Source: an uncultured Holophagaceae bacterium (GTDB lineage Bacteria; Acidobacteriota; Holophagae; Holophagales; Holophagaceae). Taken from it: a stretch of DNA of 32,837 nt. Positions 9,402-17,610 of this stretch are shown here, piece after piece. Below the pieces are notes generated by a model that was not told the origin of the DNA, searched no databases, and saw nothing but the letters and a program-made list of their open reading frames with translations. Positions within the stretch are counted from its first letter, which is position 1, and every line of letters starts with the position of its first letter. The stretch spans positions 1-32,837 of the forward strand of contig CAIRQL010000194.1 of NCBI GenBank assembly GCA_903880675.1, given 5' to 3'. The position numbers were made by a program, and so were the translations under genes.

Positions 9402-10556
9402 TTAGACCATCCGGTTGATCAGGATCGGGTTGGCGAGGGAGGTCCCCACGGCGTAGTTCCGTAGCTTCTCGATGTGCAGCAGGTTCAGCCGGGTGCCCAT
9501 GGTGAGGATCACCACCTCGTTGTTCTTCACGAAGACATCGTCGGCCAGCACCATGCCCGGCTGGAGGTCCTCGAGGGCCAGCATCACGTGCTTCTCGGCC
9601 TCGTTGGCACCCACGGCGTGCACCACCTCCCCCAGGATCTTCACCACCGCAGGGTCGTACTTCGTGCCGCTGCCGGTCTCGATCTCGCTGAAGACGACCA
9701 CCTTCGATTGCCGGACCTGGAGGCGGGTGACATAGTCGTGCACCACCAGGAGGATGCGGGAGCCGATGGGGATGTCCTCTCCGGCGATGTGCTCGGCGGG
9801 GTACCCGGTGCCGTCAAAGTGCTTGGTGCTGAAACGGATGAGCTGGGCCACAGACTGAAGCCGGGGGATGTTCGCAATGATGTTGGCACCCACCTCCGGT
9901 GCCCGCAGGGCCATCTCATTTTCCTGCACGGTCAGGCGCTCCCCGCGGACGATCTTGGACTGGACCTCGATGGGGATGGCCAGCCAGCCAATCCGGGATA
10001 GCAGGGCCGCCAAGCCCAGGTCCCAGCCCACGTCCAGGCTGAACTTGCCAGCGATTTCCACCGCCAGGTCCCGCATCTCCTTCGTCCTGCCGAAGCCCCG
10101 GGGATCGAACAGGGAGAGCAGCTCTACCAGGGTCTGGACGCTCCCGGTGAGGGTCTGCTCCAGGAGGGTCCGCTCGGCCACGATCAGCTCATGCTGGTTC
10201 ACCGAGTCCACGAGCACCAGGCGGAGGTCGTCCCCCTTGATGGGCTTGGTCAGGAAGCGGAAGACATGGCCCTGGTTGACCGCATCGATGGCCGTGCCGA
10301 GATCGGCCTGCCCCGTGAGCATCACCCGGGTGGTGTTCGGCGCCAGAAAGCGCCACTGGTCCAGGAACTTGATCCCGTCCATGCCCGGCATCATCATGTC
10401 GGCCACCACCACGGCAAAGGGTTCGGCGCCGAAGAGGACCTTCAGCGCCTCCTCGCCGGACTCGGCGGTGGTGACCTCGAACTCATCGCGGAGGATCCGC
10501 ATGAGGGAGCGGAGGAGCAGGGTGTCATCGTCAACGAGGAGAATGCGGGGCTTCAT
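9402..10556 (-). CDS. Response regulator: REC + degenerate HD-GYP-like domain
   Basis: REC: ILLVDDDTLLLRSLMRIL...VVVADMMMPGMDG...VMLTGQ...RFLTKPI. HD-GYP-like C-terminus retains FDGTGYP but has LLSRIGWLAIP where LLHDIGKIGIP is expected. Start at ATG 10556; the longer track ORF runs into upstream genes. Confidence 0.9.
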   Translation of the reverse strand: MKPRILLVDDDTLLLRSLMRILRDEFEVTTAESGEEALKVLFGAEPFAVVVADMMMPGMDGIKFLDQWRFLAPNTTRVMLTGQADLGTAIDAVNQGHVFRFLTKPIKGDDLRLVLVDSVNQHELIVAERTLLEQTLTGSVQTLVELLSLFDPRGFGRTKEMRDLAVEIAGKFSLDVGWDLGLAALLSRIGWLAIPIEVQSKIVRGERLTVQENEMALRAPEVGANIIANIPRLQSVAQLIRFSTKHFDGTGYPAEHIAGEDIPIGSRILLVVHDYVTRLQVRQSKVVVFSEIETGSGTKYDPAVVKILGEVVHAVGANEAEKHVMLALEDLQPGMVLADDVFVKNNEVVILTMGTRLNLLHIEKLRNYAVGTSLANPILINRMV

Positions 10557-10593
10557 GGCTGGCTCCTGTCTGCTACAAAGTTGGGCATGCCGG

Positions 10594-11781
10594 TCAACCG
10601 GCCCGCCAGCGGGCGAGGGCGCCCTGCCAGAGGGCCTGGGCAGAGTCCACAAAGGTGAGGGGGTCCCCGGCGAGGAAGGAGCCCTCGACAAACCGGTCGG
10701 GAGCGCTGCCAGAACCTGGCTGGAAGTGCGCGATGTGGAGGGCCAGGGAGACCAGCGAGGTGTGCTGCCGCAGGTCCGTGCCGTGCTGCTCCCGGAGGGC
10801 ACTGCCAAAGGGTTCCGGCAGTCCCCAGAGACCCAGGAGCTGGGCGCCGACCTGCACGTGGTCCGTCCCGAGGCGGGCGCGCTCCAGGTGAGTGAGCATC
10901 TCCCAGGGATCGTGGGCTTCCTCCAGAATGGTGCGGTAGGCGCAGGCAGGGTTGGTGGCCAGGACCACCCGCCCAATGTCGTGCAACAGACCCACCGAGT
11001 ACGCCTCTCCGGCTGCATGGGGGTCCCCCGTCTCCTGCAGGATCAACTCCCGGGCCACCAGGGCCACCTGTCGGGAGTGGGCCCAGAGCGACTGGAGGCT
11101 CATGCCCTCGGGCGATTCATCCAGAGCCGAGACCATCACACCCCGATCCATCACCATTTCCTTGATCAGCTCCATCCCCAGGAAATCGATGGCCTGCCGC
11201 AGGTCCGTGATGGACCGCCGGAAGGGCATGTAGGCGGAGTTCACCAGCTTGAGCACCTTGGAGGCGAAGCCGATGTCCTGGAGGATGACCGCTGCCACAG
11301 CCTGGGCGTCCGGCTCCGCCTGGGCGAGCAGGCTTCTTAGCTTCGCGAGGTTATAAGGCAGGCTGGGAATGTGGTCGAGCCCCGCGACCAACCCCCGGGC
11401 AAGGGCAGCGCCCTCCTCCTGGGGATCCAGGACAAAGCCTTCGATGATCGCAAGCAGATCATTGGGATCCACGGGCTTCACCAGGAAGCGGTGATAGTCG
11501 CCTTCTGCTTCCAGGATGCGGCGCAGGGGGGCGTGACCGGAGAGGACGACGCGCACGGCTGAGGGCTGGACCTGCCGGGCATGCCGCAGGACATGGGAGC
11601 CGTCCATGCCGGGCATCTGCATGTCCGTGAGCACCAGATCAAAGGGGGTTGTGTCCAGCCTCCGGACAGCCTCCTCCCCGGAGTCCACCACCTCGGCAGT
11701 CCAGCGGGGTCGCTGCATCCGGAAGGTGCGGTTGAGCGCCTTCAGGATCAGGGGGTCGTCGTCGACGATAAGGATGCGCAT
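10594..11781 (-). CDS. Response regulator: REC + HDOD domain
   Basis: MRILIVDDDPLILKALNRTF...DLVLTDMQMPGMDG...FLVKPVDP; then HDOD-type IPSLPYNLAKLRSLLAQAEPDAQAVAAVILQDIGFASKVLKLVNSAYM...GLLHDIGRVVL. Confidence 0.93.
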   Translation of the reverse strand: MRILIVDDDPLILKALNRTFRMQRPRWTAEVVDSGEEAVRRLDTTPFDLVLTDMQMPGMDGSHVLRHARQVQPSAVRVVLSGHAPLRRILEAEGDYHRFLVKPVDPNDLLAIIEGFVLDPQEEGAALARGLVAGLDHIPSLPYNLAKLRSLLAQAEPDAQAVAAVILQDIGFASKVLKLVNSAYMPFRRSITDLRQAIDFLGMELIKEMVMDRGVMVSALDESPEGMSLQSLWAHSRQVALVARELILQETGDPHAAGEAYSVGLLHDIGRVVLATNPACAYRTILEEAHDPWEMLTHLERARLGTDHVQVGAQLLGLWGLPEPFGSALREQHGTDLRQHTSLVSLALHIAHFQPGSGSAPDRFVEGSFLAGDPLTFVDSAQALWQGALARWRAG

Positions 11782-11786
11782 GGGTG

Positions 11787-14700
11787 CTAGGCCTCCAGCG
11801 CGTCTTGGCCAGCGCCCCCGGCCCCCAGGGGCAGGCGGAGAATGAAGGTCGTCCCGGCGTCTGGCATCGACTGGCACTGGATGGTGCCGCCATGCCGATT
11901 CACGATGACCTGATAGCACACGGTGAGGCCCTGACCCGTGCCCTTGCCCACCTTCTTCGTGGTGAAGAAGGGGTCGAAGATCTTCTTCTGGACGCTGGGA
12001 TCGATGCCCACGCCGTTGTCCGTGATGCGGATCTCCACCCCGGCCGGGTGCCGGCGCGTGGAGAGGGTGATCACGCCCTTCCGGCTGTCCCCGGCCTTGC
12101 GCTCGGCGACAGCGTCGCTGGCATTGACGATGAGATTCAGGAAGGCCTGGTTCAGCTCCGCTGGCAGGCCCTGGATCGTGGGCACAGAGGGGTCCAGGTC
12201 CAGCACCAGGTCGGCGATGTGCTTCCACTCGTTCCGGGCCACGGTGGAGGTGGTGATCAGGCACTCGTTGATGTCCACCGCCACCTTTTCGGTGCCCCCG
12301 GGGTGGCTAAATTCCTTCATGGCGCGGACGATCTTGGTGACCCGCTGGATCCCCTCGATGGACTCGGAGATGGCCTGGGGAACTTCCTCGTGGAGGAAGG
12401 TCAGGTTCATCTCCTCGGCCAGCTGAGCCAGGGTTGCAGCCCGGGCTGGGGGAAGCTCGTTGCGGGCGGCCTCGTAGGACTCGAGGAGGCGTCGCACCTG
12501 GGCAGAGGCCTTTTTGATGAATTCGAGGTTGTTGCCCAGAAACTGGATAGGGGTGTTGATCTCGTGGGCGATTCCGGCAGCCAAGCGGCCGATGGACTCC
12601 ATCTTGCGGGACTGCTCCAGTTCCACCATCACCGCCTGATTGGCGGCCTCGATGTGCTGGCGGACTTCCATCTCGGCCACCAGATCGAGGTTCTTCTGGT
12701 CCAACTCCTGGGTCCGCTCGGCCACCCGCTGCTCGAGCTCCAGGAGGGACTCGGTGCGCTCGACCTTGGCGCCCAGGGCCCGGGCGGCGATGCGCAGGAT
12801 CTCCTGCTCCGAGGTGGTCCAGTGGCGGGCCTGGGCGCACTCGTCGAAGCCGATCATCCCCCACCACTTCCCCCGCACGTGGATGGGCATGACGAGGATC
12901 GATAGGATGCCCTGGGGCTGAAGCAGGGCCCGCTCCACCTCGGGGAAGCTGTGGACATTCCCGGAGATCATCTGGTCGGCGGCGAGGGTGTCGACCCAGC
13001 GGCTGAAGCCCGCAGCCCGCATGGGGATCCCCAGCAGGTCCGGGTTGTTGATCTGGGGCTCGATGCCCTGTGCACACCACTCGTGGGTCTGATCCATGGG
13101 GGCCTCTTCCTGGATCTGGGCGCCCTCCTGGAGTCTGAAGACGTACACGCGGCTGACCTCGGTGGCCAGACCCAGGGCTTCCAGGAACTCGGCCAGCCCG
13201 GCCTCCCAGGTCTCGGAGTTCAGGAGACCGGCGATGGAGCGGCTGACAGCCTCAAGGAGCCGATCCCTCTGCACCAGGGCTCTTTCCATGGACTTCCGGA
13301 GGTCGATGTTGGCGTGGGTGCCCACCATCCGGAGCGCATTCCCCGCAGCGTCTCGCTCGACGGCTGCACCCCGGGCCAGGATCCAGATGTAGTTGCCATC
13401 CTTGTGGCGCAGTCGGTGCTCGCACTGGTAGCGGGGTGTGAGACCCACCAGATGCTGCCGGACTTCATGCAGGACCCGCTCCCGGTCGTCCGGGTGGAGC
13501 CGGTTTTCCCACTCGGTCAGGTCGTCGCTGATTTCCTCAGGAGCGTTGCCCAGCATGGACTTCCAAGTGTTCGAGAAGTACACCCGGCCCTGGGATACGT
13601 CCCAGTCCCACAGACCATCCCCAGTGCCCTCCACCGCTGCGGCGAAGCGGGCCTCGCTCTCCCGCAGGGCCTGGGCGCTCCGCTGGAGCTCGGTCACATC
13701 CTGGAAGGAAACCACCGCACCAAGGTTTTTCCCGTCCCGGATGATGGGCGTGCTGACCAGGGAGACATGGAGCAGGGACCCGTCCTTCCGGCAGAAGATC
13801 TCGTCACTGGAGCGGTAGATAGCGCCCTCGGGGGCGGCCGAGACGGGTTGCAGGGAAACCAAGGGACCCTGGCCCCGGTCCTGCTGGCTCCGATGGAAGA
13901 GGCTCTGGGCGGACCGGCCCAGGAGCTCCTCCCGGGTCCAGTGGAGGATCTCCTCGACCCTGGGGTTGACGTAGGTAATGTGGCCCGCCTCATCCAGCAC
14001 GTAGAGGCCGTCCCCCATGGCATGGGTGATCTCCTCCATGCGCTGGTGGGCCTCGGCCAGACCCAGGGCGAGGGTGGCTTGGCCGTCCCGGGCCTCCGTG
14101 AGCTCCTGGATACGCTCCCGGACAGCCAGGGACATGGCGTTGAAGGCTGCCCCCAGGCGGCCCACATCGTCGTCTCCTTCGGCCACCAGGGCCGGGGCGA
14201 GGTTGCCTCCTGCGACGGACTCGCTGGCCCGGGTGAGGGCCGTGAGGTGGCGGGTCAGCCAGAAGCCAAGGACCGTCAGCAGACCCGCCGACAGCAACAG
14301 CTCACCCAGGGCGATGAGTACGCCCTGGGTCAGGAGCTGCTGGTGGGCCTGCAGGATCTGCGAGAGGTCCAAGCCGAAGTGGACAGTGCCCAGCTTCTGG
14401 CCACCCACGCTGACCTGGGACTCCACGTTGTAGCGGGGGGTATCACTGGACGAATACAGGCGGAAAGACTCGTCCGGCGGCGGCAGGGGGCGGTCCTTGG
14501 GCCAGCCGCTGGAGGCCACCACCTTGCCAGCGGCATCCTTGACAGCCAGGTAGTCGATGCCCTGGGAGGCCACGCACTCGTCCAGGATGGCCTGCACTGT
14601 CGCCGTGTCCCGCTGGGCCAGGGGCGCAATGAGGGCGGCATGGAGGACCGGGGTCATCTGGGAGGCATGGCGGGCCGCCTGGGCAGTCATCTGGCCCGAA

Positions 14701-14810
14701 AGCAGCCGCAGGCTATTGACCACCAGGAGGGTGAGCATCGTGGCTTCGACCAGGATGGCCGCCACCAGCATTCGGGAGCGGACGGACCGCCCCATGAGGC
14801 CTGCCTTCAT
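11787..14810 (-). CDS. Membrane sensor histidine kinase (2 TM, HAMP, PAS, PAS/PAC, GAF-like, HisKA, HATPase)
   Basis: TM1 MLVAAILVEATMLTLLVVNSLRLL, TM2 GVLIALGELLLSAGLLTVLGFWL, two PAS domains, GAF-like region, H-box GIAHEINTPIQFLGNN, N/G boxes NLIVNASDAV, DNGVGID, GTGQGL. Confidence 0.94.
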   Translation of the reverse strand: MKAGLMGRSVRSRMLVAAILVEATMLTLLVVNSLRLLSGQMTAQAARHASQMTPVLHAALIAPLAQRDTATVQAILDECVASQGIDYLAVKDAAGKVVASSGWPKDRPLPPPDESFRLYSSSDTPRYNVESQVSVGGQKLGTVHFGLDLSQILQAHQQLLTQGVLIALGELLLSAGLLTVLGFWLTRHLTALTRASESVAGGNLAPALVAEGDDDVGRLGAAFNAMSLAVRERIQELTEARDGQATLALGLAEAHQRMEEITHAMGDGLYVLDEAGHITYVNPRVEEILHWTREELLGRSAQSLFHRSQQDRGQGPLVSLQPVSAAPEGAIYRSSDEIFCRKDGSLLHVSLVSTPIIRDGKNLGAVVSFQDVTELQRSAQALRESEARFAAAVEGTGDGLWDWDVSQGRVYFSNTWKSMLGNAPEEISDDLTEWENRLHPDDRERVLHEVRQHLVGLTPRYQCEHRLRHKDGNYIWILARGAAVERDAAGNALRMVGTHANIDLRKSMERALVQRDRLLEAVSRSIAGLLNSETWEAGLAEFLEALGLATEVSRVYVFRLQEGAQIQEEAPMDQTHEWCAQGIEPQINNPDLLGIPMRAAGFSRWVDTLAADQMISGNVHSFPEVERALLQPQGILSILVMPIHVRGKWWGMIGFDECAQARHWTTSEQEILRIAARALGAKVERTESLLELEQRVAERTQELDQKNLDLVAEMEVRQHIEAANQAVMVELEQSRKMESIGRLAAGIAHEINTPIQFLGNNLEFIKKASAQVRRLLESYEAARNELPPARAATLAQLAEEMNLTFLHEEVPQAISESIEGIQRVTKIVRAMKEFSHPGGTEKVAVDINECLITTSTVARNEWKHIADLVLDLDPSVPTIQGLPAELNQAFLNLIVNASDAVAERKAGDSRKGVITLSTRRHPAGVEIRITDNGVGIDPSVQKKIFDPFFTTKKVGKGTGQGLTVCYQVIVNRHGGTIQCQSMPDAGTTFILRLPLGAGGAGQDALEA

Positions 14811-15643
14811 TTGAGGCCCAGGTTCCGGCGGACTTCATCAGCAAAGGGGTCCATGGCTTCCAACTCGCCCTTCTTCAGCTTGCGGTACCCCTCCAGCTTG
14901 TTCTTCTCCAGGTAGCGTTTCCCCTCGGCACTTCCGGCGAAGGACCAGAGCGCCGCCTCCACAGCGGCCCGGCGGGCCCGCTGGCGCGCATTAAGCACAT
15001 AGACCCGCCCCGCCAGGGCGGGACTCTCGGCCAGCACCCGGAGCCCGGTTTGGACCTCTGGGGCGAGGTTCTGGAAATTGGGCAGCGAAACGAAACCGGC
15101 CGTGCCCTCTCCGGACAACAGCAGTTGGGCCACGCTGTCCGCGGCGCTGACATAGCGAACGGTCACGTCCTTGCATCCGGAGCGGTCGAGCCAGTGCTGC
15201 CCCCAGAGGGTCACCAGGGAAGTGGGGCTGAGGCCGATGACGGTGGTTCCGTTGAGGTCCTTCGCGGTGCGAATTCCCCCCTTCTGGGTGGTGATGACCA
15301 GCGACTTGAAGGCGGCCTTGTAGGTGATCAGCGGGATGTAGCGGAAGTCGGCTTGGAGCAGCCGGGCCTGATGCCCCGTGGTGACCGCCAGATCGAACTT
15401 CTGGGCGATCGCCTGTCGGGCATAGTCGGTGAAGTCGGGGGCCGTGACGATCTCCACCTCCACCCCCAGAGCCTTGGCAAGGTGCATGCGGAGGGGCTGG
15501 TACTGCTCGAGGATGAACCGGGCACTGGTGTGGGGGGCAACGCCGATCTTGAAGGGCTCGGCGACCTCCGCTGCACGGAGCGGGAGCAGGGCCTGGAGCG
15601 CCACGCAGGAGGCTCCCAGGAAGCGGCGCAGATTTGCTTTCAC
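14807..15643 (-). CDS. PhnD-like phosphate/phosphite/phosphonate-type periplasmic binding protein
   Basis: Signal peptide MKANLRRFLGASCVALQALLPLRAAE; FKIGVAPHTSARFILEQYQPLRMHLAKALGVEVEIVTAPDFTDYARQAIAQKFDLAVTTGHQARLLQ...; overlaps the kinase start by 4 bp; no permease or ATPase nearby. Confidence 0.88.
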   Translation of the reverse strand: MKANLRRFLGASCVALQALLPLRAAEVAEPFKIGVAPHTSARFILEQYQPLRMHLAKALGVEVEIVTAPDFTDYARQAIAQKFDLAVTTGHQARLLQADFRYIPLITYKAAFKSLVITTQKGGIRTAKDLNGTTVIGLSPTSLVTLWGQHWLDRSGCKDVTVRYVSAADSVAQLLLSGEGTAGFVSLPNFQNLAPEVQTGLRVLAESPALAGRVYVLNARQRARRAAVEAALWSFAGSAEGKRYLEKNKLEGYRKLKKGELEAMDPFADEVRRNLGLK

Positions 15644-15797
15644 AGACTCACCTCACAGGACGCTGAATCGATTGGAAGGAGGGGGGCCGTATTAAGGCCG
15701 AGGTATAAAAGCCCCACCCCACTACCCTAAACCCATCGGCAGGCCGAAAGCAGGTCTTCAGAAAGCGTGGCTGCCTGACCAGGAGGCCCCTACGCAC

Positions 15798-16511
15798 TCA
15801 GATAAATCCGGCCTTGACCGCCACTCGGACCAAAGAAGTGGAATTGTGCAGACCGAGCTTATCCAAAATATGGCTCCGGTGGACATCCACGGTGCGGGGG
15901 CTGATGCCCAGCCGGGGGCCGATCTCCTTCGAGGACCGTCCCTGCCCGATCAGGCGCAGCACATCCAGCTCCCGGGCGGTCAAGCGGGCCTCGATGAGCT
16001 GCTGGAGGGCGGAGGTCTCGAAGTCGGGCCCTTCGGCGGGTGCCATGGCCTTGGCCTGGGCCAGGAGGCGGTTCTCCGCAGCCCGCTGCTGGTACAGCTC
16101 GACAGACTCAGCCATGACCTGCCGCAGGCTCTCCATCCCCACGGGCTTGGTGAGGAACCGGAAGACCTGACCCCGGTTCACGGCCTCGATGGCCAGCGGC
16201 AGGTCCGCCTGGCCGGTGAGCATGATGCGCACCATGTCCGGATGGTCCTGGTGCAGCGTATGCAGGAGGTCGATGCCCGTCATACCAGGCATCTGGTGGT
16301 CGATGAGGGCCACGGCCGGCAGGGGACCCTTGGCCAGGAGGGCCAGGGCTTCTGCGCCTGACTGGGCGGTCTGGATGTCGTGGGTTTCCCCGAACAGGCG
16401 GCGCATGCTCCTGAGGATCAAGGGGTCGTCATCCACGAACAGGATGATCGGACGTTCGGGACGCTTCTCCAGGCCATGGGCGTCTGGCGAGGGATCGTCG
16501 TGGGCGCGCAT
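15798..16511 (-). CDS. NarL/FixJ-type response regulator: REC + LuxR HTH
   Basis: IILFVDDDPLILRSMRRLFG...VALIDHQMPGMTG...RFLTKPV; C-terminal LTARELDVLRLIGQGRSSKEIGPRLGISPRTVDVHRSHILDKLGLHNSTSLVRVAV. Confidence 0.95.
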   Translation of the reverse strand: MRAHDDPSPDAHGLEKRPERPIILFVDDDPLILRSMRRLFGETHDIQTAQSGAEALALLAKGPLPAVALIDHQMPGMTGIDLLHTLHQDHPDMVRIMLTGQADLPLAIEAVNRGQVFRFLTKPVGMESLRQVMAESVELYQQRAAENRLLAQAKAMAPAEGPDFETSALQQLIEARLTARELDVLRLIGQGRSSKEIGPRLGISPRTVDVHRSHILDKLGLHNSTSLVRVAVKAGFI

Positions 16512-16543
16512 CCGGACTCCTACTTCGGATCGACTATACCCCA

Positions 16544-16562
16544 GAGCGGGCCTCTTGCCCGA
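16544..16562. other. Small hairpin (CGGGC CTCTT GCCCG core)
   Basis: agcgggcctcttgcccgaga in the gap between the PAS-Fis regulator and the LuxR-type regulator; 5-bp GC stem, no U-tract, so terminator function is uncertain. Confidence 0.35.
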
Positions 16563-16564
16563 GA

Positions 16565-16590
16565 TCCATAGGTTGTTTTATGTAGTTCGA
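16565..16590 (-). promoter_or_regulatory. Candidate operator/promoter motif copy 1 (TCCATAN..TTATGTAG..GA on + strand)
   Basis: TCCATAGGTTGTTTTATGTAGTTCGA; 19/26 identical, ungapped, to 17585-17610; 54-79 bp upstream of the REC-LuxR start. Confidence 0.5.
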
Positions 16591-16599
16591 ATTTTAGGG

Positions 16600-17496
16600 T
16601 CAGACGACGATGCGGGCCTTGACCCTTCGACCCCGACTGGCGGAGGGAATCTTGAAGCCAGCCTGTTTGTACTCGCCCAGCTTGTTGCGAACGGTGCGCA
16701 GAGCGATGTCGAGGTGGCGGGCACAGTCGCTGCGGTTGCCCTGGAGAGCCTGCAGGGTGCTCAGGATCCAGAACCGTTCGAGCTTGTGCAGGCTCAGTCC
16801 CAGCGGCAGGGCCACGGGCTTGCCCACGGGGACCCCCACCAGGGGCCGGTCCGGGTCGGCCTGCCGGACCTGGGCCCGGGAGGCATCCTGGGCGATGCCC
16901 GTAGAATCGCGTATGACCGTGACCAAGTCCCGGATGCGGGCCAGGGCAAAAGCCTCCTGGAACAGCCCATCCCACTGGTGGGACATGGCCACCTGGTCGC
17001 CCCGGATCCGGTTGGTGGAGGCGATGACCCGCCGCTGGCTCTCATCGAGGATGGACAACAGGTTTCCACTCGCATTCTGCAGGACGCTCAGGGCCTGGCC
17101 CAGCAGGTCCCGGGACTCGGAATGGGCCACAACTTCCACCGCCGGCACCTTTTCCATGAGGCTCACCAGGAAGAGGGGCTCCGGGGATTCCTGGGACTGG
17201 CCGGTCAAGGCGATGCTGAACTGGCCGTCCTTGAGATCGCCGGAGGCCGTTCGGAAGGGCAGGACGAATTCAAAGGAGCGGGAGGCCTGGGCTCCCGACA
17301 GGGTCCCCATCTCCCGGAAGATGCCTTGGACGATGCCGAGGCTCACTGGATCCGGAAACAGGTTCTGGCACCACTGTTCCTGGGTTTCCACTTGCTCGAA
17401 GGGGTAACCCGTCAGCTCATGGGCCTCTTTGCTATAGCGAAGCAGAGAACCGTTCACATCAAATACCAGAATGCCCAGGGGGCGGGTCTGTCCCAT
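16600..17496 (-). CDS. PAS-domain transcriptional regulator with C-terminal Fis-type HTH, no AAA+ domain
   Basis: Start ATG 17496 (MGQTRPLGILVFDVNG) preceded by AAGGAGG; PAS-like N-terminus (RYSKEAHELTGYPFEQVET); C-terminal LSTLQALQGNRSDCARHLDIALRTVRNKLGEYKQAG is Fis-like. Confidence 0.85.
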   Translation of the reverse strand: MGQTRPLGILVFDVNGSLLRYSKEAHELTGYPFEQVETQEQWCQNLFPDPVSLGIVQGIFREMGTLSGAQASRSFEFVLPFRTASGDLKDGQFSIALTGQSQESPEPLFLVSLMEKVPAVEVVAHSESRDLLGQALSVLQNASGNLLSILDESQRRVIASTNRIRGDQVAMSHQWDGLFQEAFALARIRDLVTVIRDSTGIAQDASRAQVRQADPDRPLVGVPVGKPVALPLGLSLHKLERFWILSTLQALQGNRSDCARHLDIALRTVRNKLGEYKQAGFKIPSASRGRRVKARIVV

Positions 17497-17584
17497 CGCG
17501 GAGCCTCCTTTTGCAACCAATCCCCGGCTCCCTGGCGGGAGGCCGAGGGCCACACCTGAAGGCTATTGCGGGTGGGCTCCTCAC

Positions 17585-17610
17585 TCCATACGCTTGATTA
17601 TGTAGATTGA
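17585..17610 (-). promoter_or_regulatory. Candidate operator/promoter motif copy 2
   Basis: TCCATACGCTTGATTATGTAGATTGA; matches copy 1 at 19/26 positions; lies in the divergent region between the PAS-Fis gene (-) and the lipoprotein gene (+). Confidence 0.5.

Follow-up and report, generated by a model that had tools for sequence, protein, structure and literature searches.

A PhnD-like binding protein and the outer half of a histidine kinase as a probable receptor pair in a Holophagaceae signalling island

What does a periplasmic binding protein of the phosphonate-binding type do when it is encoded beside a sensor kinase and lacks a transporter of its own? The question is raised by a contig of an uncultured Holophagaceae bacterium (CAIRQL010000194.1, assembly GCA_903880675.1), of which positions 1 to 32,837 were analysed; this whole stretch is called the window. 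Six minus-strand genes at 9402-17496 form an island. They encode a PAS-like/Fis-type regulator (PAS-Fis), a REC-LuxR response regulator, a PhnD-like binding protein, a histidine kinase, a REC-HDOD protein and a REC-degenerate HD-GYP protein. An initial annotation had listed these genes in this order, proposed that the PhnD-like protein acts as a co-receptor for the kinase, and singled the island out as its best candidate for an undescribed system. Re-reading of the open reading frames (ORFs) confirmed the genes, their order and their coordinates. The co-receptor idea is well supported by gene linkage across several phyla, found in both directions of search. These comparisons indicate that the binding protein and the outer half of the kinase travel as a single inherited receptor, to which different inner output halves are attached.

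The PhnD-like gene lies at 14807-15643 on the minus strand. Its product matches PF12974 (Phosphonate-bd, E-value 2.3e-38) and starts with a signal peptide (approximately residues 1-27). The kinase ORF (11787-14810, minus strand) overlaps it by 4 bp (ATGA, 14807-14810) and can be divided into two parts. The front, which would form the second half of the receptor, is encoded at 14075-14810 (minus strand) and contains a first transmembrane helix (TM1), a periplasmic Cache/CHASE8-like domain (approximately residues 37-160), a second transmembrane helix (TM2) and HAMP (E-value 5.6e-7). The periplasmic domain resembles CHASE8/sCache_3 weakly, with a CHASE8 E-value of 2.3e-4 that falls under the cut-off. 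The rear, at 11787-14074 (minus strand), contains PAS, PAS, GAF, HisKA with His749, and HATPase_c. Pfam names the domains of the whole protein as HAMP, PAS, PAS_3, GAF, HisKA and HATPase_c.

An alignment of the PhnD-like family was scanned as the sole query over 84,980 species genomes, and 80 loci, mostly proteobacterial, were kept. At 76 of the 80 loci, in several phyla, the next gene downstream opens with a front of the window type (TM–Cache-like–TM–HAMP), at roughly 50–95% identity. The spacing from the PhnD-like gene to the kinase is usually -4 to +27 bp, with one pair displaced by a frameshift. The kinase rear behind this front is often unrelated to that of the window and belongs to a plain or a hybrid kinase. 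HAMP, HisKA and HATPase_c are present in all partners that were scanned for domains (n = 63), accompanied by REC in 40 and by Hpt in 12. A minority of the front family gives CHASE8 or sCache_3 matches, and an AlphaFold2 (AF2) model of a homologous front consists of a long helix, a sheet and a long helix. No widely shared gene was seen in the neighbourhood beyond the pair, where a target pathway was sought and none was found. None of the 76 pairs is naturally fused. Separately, long ORFs of 884-1374 aa at loci L018, L019, L020 and L021 give a distant match to PhnD-like proteins and may encode fused kinases of the TtrS type.

The converse search used the kinase front alone as query in 399 Pseudomonadota genomes. 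It returned 12 loci in 10 genomes, a frequency that is a lower bound since six candidates were scored per genome, and a PhnD-like gene stands upstream at 9 of the 12. The outputs behind the front were kinase, hybrid kinase, GGDEF and GGDEF-EAL. Within the genus, the neighbour of the PhnD-like gene in two genomes (G004 and G020) is a hybrid kinase of 762 aa, and the 4-bp overlap is kept. Aligned with the window kinase, this protein is 46-80% identical by segment in the front, approximately 20% in the first PAS, and lower still in the remainder (approximately 1-20%). By this comparison, the rear of the kinase has been naturally replaced with the pair left intact. G004 also offers a separate observation: two of its kinases, at L115:9397-14840 and L029:8431-11552, share the sensor front, and its single close PhnD-like gene stands beside the hybrid kinase. 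One binding protein in G004 may serve two kinases.

Several observations weigh against this reading. Four of the 80 loci (L060, L066, L084 and L113, from Geobacteraceae or Desulfuromonadales) have a PhnD-like gene with no kinase front downstream, and L115 has a front with no adjacent PhnD-like gene. PhnD distances correlate with those of the periplasmic domain at r 0.74, which is barely above the 0.67 found with the kinase core, so co-evolution is not decisive. When both halves of L059 were modelled by AF2 as one chain, with the stop codon read through, the domains were confident. The predicted TM-score (pTM) was 0.58 and the relative domain placement unreliable; the model therefore gives no usable docking pose. 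Finally, the main signal could enter through the PAS, PAS and GAF domains. With these points set against the linkage, we consider it very probable that the PhnD-like protein and the kinase form a receptor pair.

Two rival accounts concern the identity of the binding protein. It could be an ordinary component of an ATP-binding cassette (ABC) importer, with its permease elsewhere and its place next to the kinase incidental. Databases do label such genes ABC substrate-binding proteins, but a PhnE permease scoring over the cut-off was found in 0 of 12 island-carrying genomes (the window's own genome is 72% complete), and across phyla the PhnD-like gene is tied to one kinase front. This account is hardly credible, and the absence of a transporter that the initial annotation had noted in the island extends, for a phosphonate permease over cut-off, to all 12 genomes. 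A part in a phosphonate importer (PhnCDE) was ruled out because no PhnE exceeded the cut-off and because of the low score of the window protein against the PhnD equivalog (26.4 bits, cut-off 261). The family is misnamed in databases. A pair of the same type on the Azospirillum lipoferum plasmid AZO_p4 (L183:3989-7569) bears the annotations ABC substrate-binding protein and "ATP-binding protein".

The other account is that the protein senses arsenic oxyanions as an orthologue of AioX, ArxX or ArrX, with which it shares the plan of a solitary binding protein and a kinase. AF2 models the mature protein with high confidence (predicted local distance difference test, pLDDT, 95.7), and its nearest solved folds are ArrX, PtxB and AioX (TM-score approximately 0.8), with XAC2383 (5ub3) also among the matches (approximately 0.77). 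ArrX and AioX are themselves binding proteins that serve in signalling, a point in favour of the receptor pair. By sequence, however, PtxB is the best match among solved structures, and ArrX and AioX are weak. The AioX pocket contains Tyr88, Cys106, Tyr131 and His192 in AioX numbering, and two pocket tyrosines and a histidine are described for both AioX and PhnD (PMC5908839). Profile alignments to PtxB and Escherichia coli PhnD were used to map these positions. The two tyrosines correspond to F71 and F112, the histidine to an alanine or serine at 168, and the AioX cysteine has no counterpart; the sole cysteine of the mature protein (157) lies off the mapped pocket position and is not conserved. 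Orthology to AioX or ArrX was rejected, as the pocket residues are not kept, and we regard an arsenic-oxyanion sensor as highly improbable. Because the canonical PhnD/AioX pocket residues are replaced, the ligand of the family is probably neither a phosphonate nor an arsenic oxyanion. Invariant across 78 aligned sequences are T88, T89, H91, Q92, Y108, S142, W147, D169 and S170.

How far does the island hold together as a whole? Orthologues of the PhnD-like protein (59-100% identity) occur in 12 of 37 genomes of the same genus, the window's own counted, and no match of comparable closeness was found in 23 other relatives searched. The named contigs among the genus loci are from Holophagaceae metagenome-assembled genomes and Geothrix oryzisoli. 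Eight of the 12 genomes carry all six genes in order, a conservation that places the gene order far from chance. The check on gene order proposed with the initial annotation thus came out in favour of the island within the genus; outside it, the order is not kept. One of the eight is G. oryzisoli (G007), in which PAS-Fis has diverged (38% identity) and the REC-HD-GYP frame is broken. In that genome, at L025:13851-14791, REC-HD-GYP matches occur in two frames, pointing to a frameshift or a misassembly. The cultured strain G. oryzisoli SG189 (L041) carries the island, with a REC-HD-GYP frame that looks broken. A ninth genome lacks PAS-Fis, in a tenth the contig ends within the kinase, and the remaining two are arranged otherwise. 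Counted over the 12 loci, window included, PAS-Fis is in place in 9, REC-LuxR in 10, and the 4-bp PhnD/kinase overlap in all 12.

The island is usually flanked by btuCD on one side and a gene resembling Na+/H+ antiporters on the other, with different flanks in one genome (G014, L030). In all seven island-free genomes examined, the flank genes stand together and the site is empty, so the island is gained or lost as a whole. In the window, a cobalamin riboswitch (Rfam RF00174, 4498-4735, plus strand) precedes a gene resembling outer-membrane receptors and a btuF/C/D-like run extending as far as the island.

The remaining four genes are regulators and output proteins. PAS-Fis (298 aa, 16600-17496, minus strand) has a solid helix-turn-helix match (HTH_8, E-value 2e-6), a weak PAS, and neither a sigma-54 AAA+ domain nor a receiver. 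Its start is an ATG with AGGAGG upstream, and an alternative GTG lies at 17553. REC-LuxR (237 aa, 15798-16511, minus strand) matches Response_reg (1.6e-21) and GerE (8.5e-19). REC-HDOD (395 aa, 10594-11781, minus strand) matches HDOD (3e-43) and Response_reg (1.3e-21), and is followed by the REC-degenerate HD-GYP protein (384 aa, 9402-10556, minus strand; Response_reg, and HD_5 at 1.1e-28). Pfam bore out the domain calls of the initial annotation, which had left the kinase periplasmic domain unnamed, except for the PAS of PAS-Fis (best E-value 0.067, under the cut-off). The gaps it had given, 5 bp between kinase and REC-HDOD (11782-11786) and 37 bp between REC-HDOD and REC-HD-GYP (10557-10593), were confirmed along with the 4-bp overlap. 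Larger gaps precede the PhnD-like gene (approximately 154 bp) and REC-LuxR (approximately 88 bp), so the six genes may belong to more than one transcript. A sigma-70 consensus scan gave nothing beyond chance level.

The phospho-acceptor histidine and ATP-binding boxes of the kinase and the Asp and Lys of the receivers are all retained, and the signalling proteins therefore look functional. The HD-GYP domain has LLSRIGW in place of the canonical LLHDIGK and has also lost the HHE of HHExxDGxGYP; the HD metal-ligand motif is gone in every intact REC-HD-GYP orthologue aligned. Cleavage of cyclic di-GMP (c-di-GMP) is predicted to be lost. Since REC-HDOD and this degenerate HD-GYP are its only candidates, the island would encode no active c-di-GMP enzyme.

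Does one kinase serve three receivers? At two loci, L116 (G004) and L117 (G016), the gene order of the island is repeated without a PhnD-like gene: REC-LuxR, a CHASE-sensor kinase, REC-HDOD and REC-HD-GYP. At L118 and L120 a kinase core is followed by REC-HDOD and REC-HD-GYP, with the front missing at L118, and L115 has a window-type kinase with both proteins and no PhnD-like gene nearby. The recurrence of the rear cassette behind another sensor marks it as an independent unit. No stronger argument is available for a branched relay, which these arrangements make plausible. The alternative is that the receptor pair is real and REC-HDOD and REC-HD-GYP answer to other kinases, their position here being historical. 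REC-HD-GYP paralogues do adjoin other kinases in the genus, but kinase core, REC-HDOD and REC-HD-GYP follow one another in this order with differing sensors (window type, CHASE type, and no front at L118), and REC-LuxR accompanies the cassette at L116 and L117 as well. We judge this alternative unlikely, and think it somewhat probable that the window kinase serves all three receivers.

A working mechanism for the island can be proposed. The PhnD-like protein would be exported and bind a small ligand in its cleft, then dock on the Cache-like periplasmic domain of the kinase. The signal would run through TM2 and HAMP to set autophosphorylation of HisKA, with PAS, PAS and GAF contributing cytoplasmic inputs. 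Phosphoryl groups would then pass to REC-LuxR, REC-HDOD and REC-degenerate HD-GYP. REC-LuxR would act on transcription, probably at the promoters of the island among others, and the other two proteins would act through protein interaction without c-di-GMP hydrolysis. The sign of regulation could be the reverse, with the PhnD-like protein inhibiting the kinase, as in YfiR or XAC2383, and the ligand altering docking. In favour of this are the likeness of the periplasmic domain to CHASE8, a member of the Cache clan that occurs in c-di-GMP enzymes, and the inhibition of YfiN by YfiR (PMC4887326). AioX-type proteins, on the other hand, act positively (PMC5908839), and we hold inhibition to be somewhat the less likely sign. 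Overall, the island likely couples a receptor of two proteins to a branched phosphorelay; the docking, sign, phosphotransfer and ligand are what we infer.

Which genes might the island control? A putative operator, CTACATAAN7TATGGA, lies upstream of PAS-Fis (17585-17605, minus strand) and of REC-LuxR (16565-16585, minus strand), and the motif scan gave 0 matches in 100 shuffles. Copies of the motif core, TAATCAAGCGTATGG, are present in several genomes that carry the island (loci L128, L129, L130, L131, L132 and L134 besides the window), where the core is seen elsewhere ahead of an operon for an OmpR-type regulator and a 7TMR-DISM kinase. With one mismatch it precedes small conserved ORFs (MSTLTL...) at L136:2098-2379 and L137:5468-5770; the L136 ORF has no Pfam match. 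At up to one mismatch, the core was not found in the island-free genus genomes searched, nor in some of the island genomes. Close orthologues of the OmpR-type regulator are restricted to island-carrying relatives, so this gene offers no way to check the motif where the island is absent; motif and island are therefore confounded by descent. We treat the genes linked to TAATCAAGCGTATGG as a lead to a possible regulon.

To speak of an undescribed system, as the initial annotation suggested, is too strong, since AioX/ArrX, XAC2383–XAC2382 and HnoK branching with a degenerate HD-GYP are already known. A 2018 study (J Biol Chem 293:10767) reportedly paired the PF12974 protein XAC2383 with XAC2382, a Cache-containing diguanylate cyclase. 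The binding protein is said to contact the periplasmic Cache domain of the co-encoded membrane protein, with cytoplasmic outputs that vary. The island resembles this system in architecture: its PF12974 protein is encoded directly beside a membrane partner, without its own transporter, in a receptor module with interchangeable outputs (kinase, hybrid kinase, GGDEF, GGDEF-EAL). It differs on the output side, where it has a histidine kinase and the receivers are separate proteins. YfiBNR is alike in that a signalling protein of the membrane is acted on from the periplasm by another protein (PMC4887326), but its output is a diguanylate cyclase. YfiR is not known to be a binding protein of PhnD-like fold.

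Receptors driven by binding proteins are an accepted general mechanism (PMC9602780). The arsenic-sensing three-component systems AioXSR, ArxXSR and ArrXSR (PMC5908839) likewise combine a solitary PhnD-fold protein, a kinase and a regulator with no transporter, whereas the island lacks their pocket residues, including the AioX cysteine, and has a LuxR-type regulator and two more receivers. The kinase systems TtrSR and ThsSR also have an adjacent regulator and sense through a PhnD-like domain (PMC5408782); there the domain lies within the kinase, unlike the separate overlapping ORFs of the island. On the output side, HnoK of Shewanella oneidensis feeds three regulators (HnoB, HnoC and HnoD), one of them a transcription factor and another a degenerate HD-GYP protein (PMC6335343), and the island kinase also stands beside three receivers that include these two types. 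The Hno input is nitric oxide, however, and Hno has an active EAL enzyme where the island has REC-HDOD. The island is closest in kind to XAC2383–XAC2382, AioXSR and, for its output, HnoK–HnoB/C/D. What is new here is the combination of parts and the shuffling of both halves.

We tentatively propose, at slightly short of an even call, that both halves are portable: the receptor, conserved for one ligand, would sit on plain kinases, hybrid kinases and GGDEF/EAL enzymes in several phyla and the output cassette on different sensors in Geothrix-like bacteria, with the island as their meeting place, controlling further two-component genes through TAATCAAGCGTATGG. Relatives of the PhnD-like protein are annotated as phosphonate-importer parts, and their gene linkage says that they are receptors. 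The close conservation of the pair (mean pairwise identity is 64% for the PhnD-like proteins and 38% for the kinase core) points to one widely used signal in sediment and soil bacteria. The natural rear replacements are ready-made chimera designs with which to ask how kinases are driven by a binding protein. Shuffling in both directions also gives a clear example of the separate evolution of input and output modules.

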